Source of the DNA: Botrimarina mediterranea
Lineage (GTDB): Bacteria > Planctomycetota > Planctomycetia > Pirellulales > Lacipirellulaceae
Length of the DNA stretch: 64,000 nucleotides
Assembly: GCF_007753265.1 (NCBI RefSeq)
Contig: NZ_CP036349.1
Location: 3,629,363-3,693,362, forward strand
Direction of reading: 5' to 3'
This document shows, piece after piece, positions 41,929 to 47,137 of the stretch. The notes under the pieces were generated by a model. It searched no databases. It worked only from the letters and a program-made list of their open reading frames with translations, and was not told the origin of the DNA. The position numbers and the translations under genes were made by a program. Numbering within the stretch: the stretch's first letter is position 1; every line of letters begins with the position of its first letter.

Positions 41929-43077
41929 TCAATCGACGTAGATCGTGTCGAACACCTCGGCGTGCTGACGCAGACCCTCGTAATAGAAAAAGACCTCGCC
42001 ACCAAATCCCAGCTCACGATTCGTTTCGATCATTGCGCGTAAATGCGGGCTCGGCAGGTCGTAACCGGCGGCGAGTGATATGAGCACTCCGGGGTAGACC
42101 TTTGGCAAGACTTCTGCGGGGACTTGTGCCTTAACCGAACCGAGCGTCGCACGGTAATCGTCGAGCTGGCGACGGTAGACCTGGGGACAGAACTCATCGC
42201 CCCAACCCTCACGCGCCCACCGCGGCCAGTCCTGGAGGTACTGATTTCGACTCCACGGCCAGACACTTGGCGCCCATGATACGCAAACGTCGGGCTCCAG
42301 CGTCTTAAGCTCTAGGTAAGTTTGCTTAACGAATTCGCTGAGCTTGTCCGCTCGCCATTGCGTCCATACGGGGTCGGCAAAGTCATCCGGCGGAGCAGCG
42401 CCACTGTGCTCATGCCGGTAGATCGCAACCGTCTTCGGGTCGTAGCCCGCCGTATTTGGGCACGCCGGCAGGCGATCATCTCCTTGCACGCCATCGACGG
42501 CGTAGTTGCTTACGACCTCCTTGAGCATCTCGAGCAGGAAGTCCTGCACATCTGGGTCGAAGGCGTTCATCCACTGGAAGCCATTGCGGCTGACAAGGTC
42601 TCCCTCGCGGTCGAGAGCCCGCCACTCAGGCCGATCACGCAGCACTCGACCCCCGTCGGGCTCTTGGTAGCTGGCGGCGAAGCCAAACTCAAACCAAGCC
42701 ACGACGCGGATCTCCTCGGCATGGGCTAACTCAACCAGTTCCTTCAGCGGGTCGAACCCTCGCAGCTGAGGGTCCATAGCTACCCCGAACTCCCGCTCCA
42801 TCAGTGCGCTGTGGTAAAGCGTGTAACCACGATTCCATACGACAGGGTAGATCGTGTTTATGCCCACCGCTTTACAACGGGCAATAACCTGCTCAAGCCC
42901 CGCGCGAGTCATCATCGCATCGCTGCCCACATTCGTCAGCCACACGCCTCGCACTGGCGACGTGGCGCCCGTCGTTGTAGCTAAGACGCCACCAATAAGG
43001 CAAGCAAGATACGGCGCGATGTGGATCAAGATACTCGGCTCCTTAACCCGTCGGTCTTCTGCACTGGCAACCGGCAA
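41929..43077 (-). CDS. GHL10-type glycoside hydrolase-like protein
   Basis: A secreted protein of about 382 residues (366 if it starts at the TTG at 43029, which has an AAGGAG nine bases upstream). A signal peptide (SILIHIAPYLACLIGGVLATT) leads into a TIM-barrel-like domain of the glycosyl hydrolase-like 10 (DUF187/GHL10) family: RGVWLTNVGSD, VGINTIYPVVWNRGYT, VVAWFEFGF, YAVDGVQGDDRLP with the acidic barrel residues, and CVSWAPSVWPWS. Family members are thought to cleave polysaccharides or peptidoglycan-related glycans. It begins at or just before the stop of the upstream paralogue. Confidence 0.85.
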   Translation of the reverse strand: MPVASAEDRRVKEPSILIHIAPYLACLIGGVLATTTGATSPVRGVWLTNVGSDAMMTRAGLEQVIARCKAVGINTIYPVVWNRGYTLYHSALMEREFGVAMDPQLRGFDPLKELVELAHAEEIRVVAWFEFGFAASYQEPDGGRVLRDRPEWRALDREGDLVSRNGFQWMNAFDPDVQDFLLEMLKEVVSNYAVDGVQGDDRLPACPNTAGYDPKTVAIYRHEHSGAAPPDDFADPVWTQWRADKLSEFVKQTYLELKTLEPDVCVSWAPSVWPWSRNQYLQDWPRWAREGWGDEFCPQVYRRQLDDYRATLGSVKAQVPAEVLPKVYPGVLISLAAGYDLPSPHLRAMIETNRELGFGGEVFFYYEGLRQHAEVFDTIYVD

Positions 43078-44701
43078 GTAGTGTTAACAGCAATGTGATC
43101 GAGGAGGGTTCGGGAACTGTCGTCGAGCTCGGCGGCTCAAAAGCGTAACTCCCAGACCACAAGTCGTAGCCCATCGCGTTGACAATACCGTCGCCGTTCC
43201 CGTCGGCGCGGAGGTCAGCCGTCGAGAGCAAGGAGTCTCGCCAAACCGTGTTGTCGGCGGCGTTTACCAAGCCATCTCCATTGTAGTCTGCCGGTTCGAT
43301 GGGTCGGCGATCCGAGAGAAGTTCGACCCGCGAAGCGCCCGGAACGGTCAGGTCTCGGACCCCGGCAGGAAAATAGCCGTCCGAAAGCTCGCGCCAGACG
43401 CCACCGACCTGGGCGACCAGACGATACCCTTGTCCTTTCGGGATGTCGAATCGCCACCGGTTGGAGCCTCGTGACGTTCCCAGAACCGGGGCGAGGCGAT
43501 GGTCGGCTGCGAACTGCGGACTGAGGGCACGGCCCTGGCCCGCGACATCGTAGAACGCGGTGAGCTGAGTGCGATAATCGTCGCGGACCGCTTTGCTGTA
43601 GAAGATCGCATGGCCTCCCGCGCCAACCTCACGCGAACGGATGATCATCTGCTCAAGGTCGGCGATCGGTGTGTTTGAACCGGAGCCGTTACCCCGCAGC
43701 CCCACAACTAACTCGCCTCGTTGGGATGACGAGAACTGACTTACTTGACCGGTGAGAGTTGTGTTGAATGACGTGTAATTGTCGCGGTAGACTTGTACGG
43801 CGTACTCGTCGAACAAGCCCGCGTCCTGCCACTGCGGCCATTCAGCGTTGAAGTTCACGTCAGAGAAGTTCGTCACCGAGGGACTCACTGACAGCAGGAG
43901 GTCGAGCCTTTTGGCTGAGATTGCTGAGGTCAGCTCCTCGGCAAAGAGTGTCACTTTTCTTTGCCGCCATTCCCGGAACTGGGTGTCGTTGACGCTCGAG
44001 GGAAGCGAGCGACCTGTCTCTTGCAGATAGATCGCCGCCGTAGTGCTGTCCCAGCCGAACTCACGTGGCCAAGCGAGCCGATCGTCGAATTGCACGCCGT
44101 CGAAGTCGTAACGTTCGATCGCTTCCAGCGTGATGTCGATCATGAAATGCCGCACTTCGGCGACTGCAGGGTTCATCCATGCGAACCCGTTTGAACTATT
44201 GGCGAACTTCCCCGCTTGGTCTCGCAAGAGCCATCCGTTGTCACGCATCGCTTGCCCAAGGGGCGTGACGGGATACCCTCCGGCGCCGACAAACTCGGCA
44301 GCCAAGCCGTATTCAAATCAGCCGAAGTAGTGAAGCTGATTGCGGTGTGCTTGGATGAGTGTCTCTTGCACCAAGTCACGCGACGACCCAAGGTAGGTCG
44401 CGCGGTCGGCGCCGCCTGTCAGAGTCGCCAGAGTCTGTGAAGGAAAGTTTGTGTACCCGTTCTTCCACGTTTCAACGTAGACCGTGTTTAGCCCAACATC
44501 GCGCAGGTCAGACATCACATCTGCCGTGCTAACGCCCGTCCGTATATGGTCGGGACCTGTCGTGGTCAGCCAAGTACCCCGCACCTCGGGCGCTGCGGCT
44601 AGACAGGGCGCAGGAGCGAGGATTCCCATCACGAAGAACGGCAGCAGGCACGAAGTCTGGATAGATATCATACGAAGAGTGCCTCGGAGGGTTGTTCCCA
44701 C
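43043..44701 (-). pseudogene. GHL10-type hydrolase with dockerin repeats and PEP-CTERM, interrupted by TGA
   Basis: One reading frame of 553 codons that is intact except for a single in-frame TGA at 44318-44320. Before it lies a signal peptide and RGTWLTTTGPD... VGLNTVYVETWKNGYTNFP; after it the GHL10 barrel continues (FEYGLAAEF, YDFDGVQFDDRLAWP). The downstream paralogue has Trp at the matching position (WFEFGFAA), so TGA replaces TGG. The C-terminus carries two calcium-type dockerin-like repeats (DYNGDGLVNAADNTVWRDS; DGNGDGIVNAMGYDLWSG) and a PEP-CTERM tail (VPEPSSITLLLTLL, basic end). It could be a recent pseudogene, a sequencing error or a readthrough case. Confidence 0.85.
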
Positions 44702-44754
44702 TCTGTACCGTATTCACGGCGACCCGTCCGTCAACGATGTGGGAGAGCAGGCGT

Positions 44755-45846
44755 CTATCGCGCCTCGCCGTGACTAATTCCCCAAACCGTCGACGAACCA
44801 GCGCAACGTGCCGCATCGCACCCCGTTGTTTCCGGGGTCGAGACAGGTAGTCCTCTCAAGTAGCGGATCCCCAACCAAGCGAAGGCTTCGGCATGTAGTG
44901 TCTCGGGATTGAGCCCTCGATCACTGACGTTTCGAACTTCCTCAAATACGCCAGCAAGCCGTGTGAGGATCAACGGGTGTCGGCTGCCCGGCCCGGTCAC
45001 CCACGCAAGCCGCGGCCGATCGGGGAGTTGTCGGACGGCGAGTCGAACCGCGTCGGCTATCACCGCACAAATGGTTGCGGCGCCATCCTGGGGGTTGAGC
45101 CCCGAAACATCGATGCGTTCGAAGTCGGCCCGCGACGGCGTACGTGGCAGCGGACGAGAGAAAAAGGGGCTTGCCAGGGCGTATTCGACACATGCCTCAT
45201 CGACAAGCCCCGCTGACGAGACGCAGCCGTCGCGGTCGTGCGGCGCGTCGGCGACTTCCTGCACCCACTCTTCTAAGAGTTCGAGCCCCGGGCCCACGTC
45301 GCCGGCGATGATCTCATTCTGCTGACTGAGCCACGTGACGCTGGTCACGTCGCCAATATGGATCATCAGCGCCGGACGCGGCTCCCGCGCCATCAGCGCC
45401 CAGTAGAACAACGCCTCCATCGGCGCGCCCTGGCCTCCACGGGCAATATCGTACCGCCGAAAGTCGGAAACGACCGGCAAGCCCGTCATCGCCGAGAGCC
45501 GCCACGGGTTTCCGATTTGTAGCATGAGCCCTTCGTGCGGCGCCCACCGCAGCGTGTGACCGTCGAGTCCAATAACAGCCGCCTGCGCGGCCTCAGAGGG
45601 GTGAGCCTCACGCAACATCTCGACGGCAGTTGCGTAATGATCCGTCAACGCACGTTCGAGCCGTAAAATCTCGGTCGTAGGGAGGTCGTTCTGTGTCGCC
45701 TCGAGCAGTCCCCAACGGAGCGACTCATCGCAAAGGGCCCTTACGCCACCGATCGATTCGACTTCATCACGGCCATCGCTACGTATCAGGGCGCCTTCAA
45801 CGGCGTCCCCGGTGACGGTCGAAACCAGGCCGATGGCGTAACGCAT
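44755..45846 (-). CDS. AnmK-like protein (anhydro-N-acetylmuramic acid kinase family), divergent
   Basis: A 363-residue member of the AnmK family. The best-kept block is TGLPVVSDFRRYDIARGGQGAPMEALFY (in two parts, about 125-152), matching the active-site region with the aspartate before GGQGAP, and the ending AFAWLGIRYL is typical. However the N-terminal MSGTSxDGxD ATP motif is replaced by LVSTVTGDAVEGAL and the LNxGGxAN motif by MIHIGDVTSVT. AnmK phosphorylates anhydroMurNAc from wall recycling; here activity is uncertain. The start is close to the divergent regulator gene. Confidence 0.75.
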   Translation of the reverse strand: MRYAIGLVSTVTGDAVEGALIRSDGRDEVESIGGVRALCDESLRWGLLEATQNDLPTTEILRLERALTDHYATAVEMLREAHPSEAAQAAVIGLDGHTLRWAPHEGLMLQIGNPWRLSAMTGLPVVSDFRRYDIARGGQGAPMEALFYWALMAREPRPALMIHIGDVTSVTWLSQQNEIIAGDVGPGLELLEEWVQEVADAPHDRDGCVSSAGLVDEACVEYALASPFFSRPLPRTPSRADFERIDVSGLNPQDGAATICAVIADAVRLAVRQLPDRPRLAWVTGPGSRHPLILTRLAGVFEEVRNVSDRGLNPETLHAEAFAWLGIRYLRGLPVSTPETTGCDAARCAGSSTVWGISHGEAR

Positions 45847-45982
45847 GACGGGGCGTTCCGTGAAGACATGGGAGCCGCATCAAGGATTCGCGGCAGAGAG
45901 ACCGTACCAGCCGCGACGCCCGCCGCCTATCCTCTCGATACGCTGCCTTTCATGGCCGTTAACTCGTTCGTCGAGCGCCGTC

Positions 45983-47137
45983 GTGCACATTCCTGAAGTC
46001 GCCGTCCTCGTTGAGACCGACACCAGTTGGGGCCGCAACGTCCTCCGCGGCGTTGCGAGCTACGCCCAACAATTCGGGCCTTGGAATCTGCTGGTCGAGT
46101 CGCACGAGGGGGCCCCCAATTGGCCGCTCCCCGACTCGTTACGAGTGGATGGGGTCATTGCCCGTGTCGCGACACCGCTCATTTTGCGGCAGCTCGTTGC
46201 GCGAAAGGCGCCAGTCATTGATGTCGGAGACCTGTTCGTAGACGACCCTCGGGTCGATTCGGTAGTCACCGACTTTGTGGCCTGGGCGAGGCTCGCACTA
46301 GACCACTTTCGCGCCAAAGGGTTTGAGGACTTTGCACTGTACGCTCCGCCCAGCCGCGACTACGCCAAACGCCGGGGCGATTCATTCGTCGCCGCTGTCG
46401 AGGCCGCTGGCCTGCACTGCGTGCAGTACCGGCCCGGCTATCGAGTCGGTCGAGAAGTGAGCCGCGACGAGCATCGACGTCGTGTCGGTCGTTGGGTCGA
46501 ACAGCTTCCTTCGCCCGTAGCGGTGCTGGCGATTGACGCCAAACGCGGCAAGGACCTCGCCGAAGTGTCTGCTGCGCAGGGCCTCTCGGTCCCCGATCAG
46601 GTCGCGATCCTTGCTGGGGATGCAGACGAACTCGCTTGCGAGATCTGCTCGCCCCCCCTGTCGAGCATCGATGTCGCCAGCCGACGCATCGGCTACGAAG
46701 CCGCGGCGCAACTAGCAGCTCGGCTGAGCGGCGGCGCGCCACGTGAGGCCCCACTGCTGATCGCCCCCGATCGTGTCATCGCACGCCAATCGACCGACCT
46801 TCTGGCCGTAGACGACCCTGCGGTAGTTCAAGCTCTCCGTTACATGCAAACGCACGCGTACAGCGGCGTTACCGTCGAGGACGTTCTCGCCCAAGTGCCG
46901 GTCGCTCGGCGGCAGCTCGAACGCCAGTTCAAGAAACGCCTCGGGCGACTCCCGGCAGAGGAGCTGCGCCGATTGCGGCTTGAACGCGGCCGGCAACTAC
47001 TCGTTGAGTCGGAACTCTCGATCGAAGGAGTCGCGGAGGCTAGTGGCTATGCCGGGGCCACCCAGTTTGGCGCGGCCTTCCGGAAGGCGTACGGGGTGAC
47101 GCCATTGTCCTACCGTCGCCGGATGGGCAAAGGCTAG
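45983..47137 (+). CDS. XylR-type AraC family transcriptional regulator
   Basis: A 384-residue regulator. The N-terminal two-thirds resembles a LacI/periplasmic-binding-protein sensor (VAVLVETDTSWGRNVLRGVASYAQQF; VDGVIARVAT; DDPRVDSVVTDF; GLSVPDQVAILAGDADELAC; PPLSSIDVASRRIGYEAA). Residues about 285-380 are an AraC DNA-binding domain with two helix-turn-helix units (GVTVEDVLAQVPVARRQLER; SIEGVAEASGYAGATQFGAAFRKAYG). This is the architecture of XylR. It probably senses a sugar and controls the adjacent uptake/hydrolase genes. The GTG start at 45983 is chosen because the sequence upstream, back to 45845, looks non-coding. Confidence 0.87.
   Translation: MHIPEVAVLVETDTSWGRNVLRGVASYAQQFGPWNLLVESHEGAPNWPLPDSLRVDGVIARVATPLILRQLVARKAPVIDVGDLFVDDPRVDSVVTDFVAWARLALDHFRAKGFEDFALYAPPSRDYAKRRGDSFVAAVEAAGLHCVQYRPGYRVGREVSRDEHRRRVGRWVEQLPSPVAVLAIDAKRGKDLAEVSAAQGLSVPDQVAILAGDADELACEICSPPLSSIDVASRRIGYEAAAQLAARLSGGAPREAPLLIAPDRVIARQSTDLLAVDDPAVVQALRYMQTHAYSGVTVEDVLAQVPVARRQLERQFKKRLGRLPAEELRRLRLERGRQLLVESELSIEGVAEASGYAGATQFGAAFRKAYGVTPLSYRRRMGKG

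Follow-up and report, generated by a model that had tools for sequence, protein, structure and literature searches.

The window considered here is a 64,000-nucleotide stretch of the genome of Botrimarina mediterranea strain Spa11T, a single contig of 5,871,207 bases (the accession is given as CP036349 in PMC7717034). It contains a run of genes on the minus strand, in which an AnmK-like kinase gene is followed by a GHL10 gene interrupted by a TGA codon (GHL10a) and by an intact paralogue of it (GHL10b). A divergently transcribed regulator gene adjoins the run. Coordinates are collected in Table 1.

Table 1. Features of the GHL10a locus, in positions of the window
Feature	Position	Strand	Remarks
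GHL10a, interrupted gene	43043..44671	(-)	542 codons with the TGA read through
Layout of GHL10a			Signal-peptide-like N-terminus, GHL10 domain (residues 29-318), beta-rich region, dockerin-like repeats, PEP-CTERM-like tail
In-frame TGA, codon 118 of GHL10a	44318..44320	(-)	Trp in 17 of 17 relatives examined
Part of GHL10a made under normal termination	44321..44671	(-)	117 residues, ending in predicted barrel strand 3
GHL10b, intact paralogue	41929..43029	(-)	TTG 43029 probable start, 13 nt past the GHL10a stop
AnmK-like kinase gene	44755..45846	(-)	Upstream member of the same-strand run
Divergent XylR/AraC-type regulator	45845..47137	(+)	Also next to the run in 3 of 3 further genomes examined from the genus

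The interrupted gene and its neighbours

The interruption is seen on the plus strand as TCA at 44318-44320, which is TGA on the minus strand. Between the ATG at 44671 and the stop codon ending at 43043 the frame is broken exactly once, by this TGA, as the original prediction had described for an otherwise open GHL10 frame. The 425 codons that it counted beyond the TGA are 424 sense codons and the terminal stop. The open frame beyond the TGA is not a product of chance, since intact orthologues can be aligned to it over almost its full extent, at 51-72% identity.

With the TGA read as Trp, residues 29-318 of the product match the GHL10 family (PF02638) at 168.3 bits, against a cut-off of 27.9. 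No NCBIfam model matches the product at E 0.001. The gene had also been described as carrying a dockerin and a PEP-CTERM signal. Both matches fall below the curated Pfam cut-offs (17.9 against 22.9 bits for dockerin, 13.3 against 20.7 for PEP-CTERM), but the dockerin-like repeats and the PEP motif can be discerned in the alignment of orthologues. Both features are thus weaker than had been described.

The start listed for the GHL10b open reading frame, TTG 43077, overlaps GHL10a. A second TTG, at 43029, is probably the true start; it gives a signal-like N-terminus, and AAGGAG is visible by eye upstream of it. Because GHL10b probably has its own ribosome-binding site at 43029, any polar effect of the TGA on it may be mild. 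A third GHL10 gene lies elsewhere in the genome.

The AnmK-like protein passes the Pfam AnmK cut-off but scores below each of the 14 listed NCBIfam AnmK equivalog cut-offs. Close to its N-terminus it has VSTVTGDAVEG, while the canonical AnmK motif is close to MSGTSLDG. Judging by the divergent motif and the missed NCBIfam cut-offs, its activity may differ from the canonical one.

The AnmK-GHL10-GHL10 run with its divergent XylR-type regulator is found in all three further genomes examined from the genus. At seven other loci of the family, neither AnmK nor a separate GHL10b occurs within about 1.5 kb on either side (0 of 7). When a longer flank is taken, one family locus shows an AnmK match about 1.6 kb away, together with a symporter match. 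The arrangement is kept in the genus, not across the family.

The region 41929-47137 may differ in composition from its relatives, low GC3 being common to the adjacent genes. GHL10a has a GC3 of 0.68, against 0.79-0.90 in three sister species. Low GC3 was considered as a sign of decay and rejected, since the neighbouring genes, at about 0.68-0.70, are equally low.

Relatives, selection and the age of the stop

The relatives with Trp at the TGA site comprise 11 sequences of nearly full length and 6 shorter ones. Seven of the 17 were found by six search peptides, one of which spans the Trp and so biases them towards it; the other ten are free of this bias. Four further loci from the peptide search belong to genomes already counted and were left out of the 17. 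In the 11 relatives whose codon was read, it is TGG without exception. The neighbouring paralogue (frame 41929-43077) likewise has the Trp that had been claimed for it, in VVAWFEFG. The simplest change proposed, from TGG to TGA, therefore agrees with every codon read: a conserved Trp has become TGA by one transition.

Intact orthologues over nearly the whole length occur in 10 relatives of the family and in one MAG from another collection. Identity is 61-72% in three genomes of the genus and 51-62% in seven other genomes of the family.

The GHL10 profile, run against 146 genomes of the order, gave at least 150 matches. Of the 150 listed, only GHL10a has an internal stop and 149 do not; weaker matches beyond these fall outside the count. 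Because it is the sole internal stop among these matches, the TGA looks private to this genome, and it is absent from all relatives examined. Three other rows of the orthologue search had been flagged for an internal stop (GHL10b here, and rows from genomes G034 and G002), and were set aside as matches overrunning the terminal stop. In a control with sulfatases, 23 of 23 matches had no internal stop.

A second strain of the species, K2D, is a South Pacific isolate (PMC11588811). Its genome has accession CP036350. The string “pseudogen” has no occurrence in the main texts of PMC11588811 and PMC7717034.

The aligned frame of GHL10a has no second stop and no frameshift. About 3.7% of random substitutions in this frame would create a stop, and the lack of a second one limits neutral divergence since inactivation to about 0.05 per site at most (5% level). 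When frameshifting indels are counted at an assumed rate, the bound drops to 0.018.

A codon-model branch test on 6 of the 12 aligned taxa (492 codons, stop column omitted) gave an own-branch omega of 0.021 against 0.067 for the background (2dlnL 8.41, towards stronger constraint), a rough result that supports only the absence of visible relaxation, as the species are too far apart for unsaturated synonymous sites and their lineages vary in GC3. Fixing the own-branch omega at 0.05 or 0.1 costs 3.3 or 12 log units relative to the best value, and values above about 0.04 are rejected by interpolation. For another tip (G003) the same test gave 0.106. At columns invariant elsewhere, GHL10a departs in 0 of 34 cases before the stop and in 4 of 99 after it, which is inside the range of other lineages. 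The four departures are P171A, P256L, N384S and D501G, the last of which hits the second dockerin-like repeat; they are too few to prove relaxation. Neither the branch test nor the invariant columns thus reveal relaxed selection in the GHL10a lineage.

With no relaxed selection and no second lesion, the stop is likely to be very recent. Long-standing decay is not supported, given the absence of further lesions and the outcome of the branch test. The relaxation or additional lesions that would mark a pseudogene are missing, which fits only a very recent event.

There is no sign of decay beyond the TGA, and the same picture would be seen if the stop were a sequencing error or were leaky and tolerated. 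The chief rival to a real mutation is an error of base calling or assembly, in which the true codon is TGG and GHL10a is intact. An error would be expected to show just this, a lone substitution unaccompanied by further lesions or by relaxed selection. Set against this are the single contig of the genome and the nature of the change. If the genome is a long-read assembly, its errors would mostly be indels, whereas the change here is a substitution. Moreover, 400 kb sampled elsewhere in the genome yielded a single gene with an internal stop, a transposase gene, so stray stops are not rife. On balance an error is improbable.

Decoding of the UGA codon

If the base call is right, the codon might be decoded at a low level. 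Near-cognate tRNA-Trp would then read the UGA occasionally, yielding a little full-length enzyme, possibly in a regulatory way. Trp is the residue inserted by UGA readthrough in E. coli (PMC7918605), and it matches the conserved residue at this site. Belinky et al. 2021 make the case that many in-frame stops of bacteria last for a short time, with purifying selection still acting (PMC7918605), and selection on the GHL10a frame looks intact. The intact selection along this branch, however, mostly predates the stop.

Other features of the site speak against a leaky stop. The base following the TGA is U, and a U after UGA makes a strong termination context. The RNA 3' of the TGA folds no better than shuffled sequence (z -0.89; 42 of 200 shuffles equal it), and no Rfam family reaches its gathering score in the TGA region. 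The genome has one tRNA-Trp, called by ARAGORN with the ordinary CCA anticodon. A programmed or tuned readthrough would be expected to leave the stop in relatives or some structure downstream; the stop is in no relative examined and the fold is ordinary. A leaky stop is accordingly quite unlikely. A related proposal holds that the TGA is a selected dimmer switch, with the allele shared across strains. Low readthrough by near-cognate tRNA-Trp would supply the right residue, so that a potentially self-damaging cell-wall enzyme is restrained and the protein itself is unchanged. This proposal is very unlikely.

No suppressor tRNA was found, as none of the 46 tRNAs called by ARAGORN has a TCA anticodon. 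These 46 account for all but one of 47 Rfam tRNA matches. The remaining match copies only part of tRNA-Arg(ccg), with 54 bases identical. The two loci concerned, 3505638-3505711 and 3447533-3447598 of the genome (G000), lie outside the window. The 54 bases reproduce the 3' part of the tRNA gene together with its immediate downstream bases, and they lie on the same strand as the complete gene at a distance of 58 kb, an arrangement that paired attachment sites of an integrated element would also show.

Selenocysteine insertion, or reassignment of UGA, has nothing in its favour besides the UGA itself. The SelA, SelB and tRNA-Sec of a selenoprotein-making genome are not found: none of nine SelB matches passes its cut-off, the one SelA match fails (130.5 bits against 267.9), and the only one of eight tRNA-Sec matches to pass is tRNA-Leu(taa). 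RF2 is present (475 bits against a cut-off of 370), and the relatives have Trp. The probability of this alternative is negligible. The functional readthrough suggested in the original prediction gains no positive support from these results: the stop is in no relative examined, and no suppressor tRNA, Sec system or notable RNA structure was found.

Recoding of TGA throughout the genome was also considered. The scan covered the window and evenly spaced samples that total 400 kb. Of 1239 same-frame stops flanked by open frame, 10 were coding-like on both sides, a floor, since only stops with 60 open codons on each side are detected. Eight of the nine besides GHL10a were translated; by eye seven look like ordinary gene ends, and one is an internal TGA in a transposase gene. 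The ninth, on the minus strand at window 27259, lies opposite a glycosyltransferase gene, in antisense orientation. The transposase gene lies outside the window at 3107886 (G000, plus strand), and the part downstream of its in-frame TGA is a DDE transposase domain (PF01609). It is the one further case of a stop within a gene to emerge from the 400 kb scan, and TGA at Trp codons forms no pattern in the window and the 400 kb. Frames of more than 400 codons in the sampled DNA, not all of which are genes, end in TGA in 80 of 185 cases, in TAG in 64 and in TAA in 41. Genome-wide recoding was rejected, since the scan stops look mostly like gene ends and RF2 is present.

Editing of the RNA from UGA to UGG would also be unlikely. 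The bacterial TadA editing motif is UACG, and the GAU context here does not fit it.

Predicted consequences and known cases

The explanation favoured here, with a probability of roughly 78%, is that GHL10a was lost in this strain through a nonsense mutation of very recent date. A G-to-A transition at codon 118 would have turned TGG into TGA, with the base call being correct and RF2 terminating at ordinary efficiency. GHL10a would then be either a pseudogene of young age or, within the species, a null allele that has yet to stop segregating. The very young pseudogene among the readings first offered is thus the one that agrees with a single transition at a conserved Trp, no other lesion and no visible relaxation.

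The structure predicted for read-through GHL10a from a 12-row alignment has a mean pLDDT of 83.7. It can be read as a barrel of eight strands, assigned by the author, with a beta-rich domain behind it. Strand 3 spans residues 114-120 and includes W118; the acidic pairs D196/D197 and D288/E289, both invariant, lie downstream of the TGA. By this assignment truncation would leave fewer than three of the eight barrel strands and remove strands 4-8. The stop falls inside the GHL10 domain and takes away essential parts of it, while 11 relatives keep the gene intact over nearly its whole length. Translation would halt before both acidic pairs, and beyond trace readthrough no active enzyme would be made.

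The intact enzyme would be a secreted, peptidoglycan-cutting GHL10 protein. Its loss may be partly covered by GHL10b and the third GHL10 gene, and the locus would then represent a peptidoglycan-fragment pathway with a broken middle gene. An annotator honouring the stop will lose or split GHL10a, and enzyme inventories of the strain may miscount GHL10 genes by one. If K2D shares the TGA, the locus would be a clean one for measuring UGA readthrough in a planctomycete.

The nearest protein of known structure is Cwp19 of Clostridium difficile (PDB 5oq2/5oq3). It is the only PDB sequence match at E 0.001 (phmmer E 2.6e-5) and the best fold match of read-through GHL10a (Foldseek E 1.9e-20, TM-score 0.75 by target length), with 18% identity. 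Cwp19 is a lytic transglycosylase of the GHL10 family, and 1,6-anhydroNAM ends are reported among its products (PMC6016235). Whereas GHL10a has a dockerin-like and PEP-CTERM-like tail, Cwp19 has CWB2 repeats instead. The Cwp19-like fold and the neighbouring AnmK-like gene suggest that GHL10a is a putative lytic transglycosylase.

Belinky et al. 2021 describe in-frame stops as widespread in bacteria and tending to the age of polymorphisms (PMC7918605). Their main analysis required the stop in a second genome, while that of GHL10a is known from one strain. Their cases resemble GHL10a in that one in-frame stop interrupts a gene which is otherwise whole and under purifying selection, and carbohydrate transport and metabolism is among their commonest categories (PMC7918605). 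GHL10a fits this description, and is an ordinary case, not a new kind of thing.
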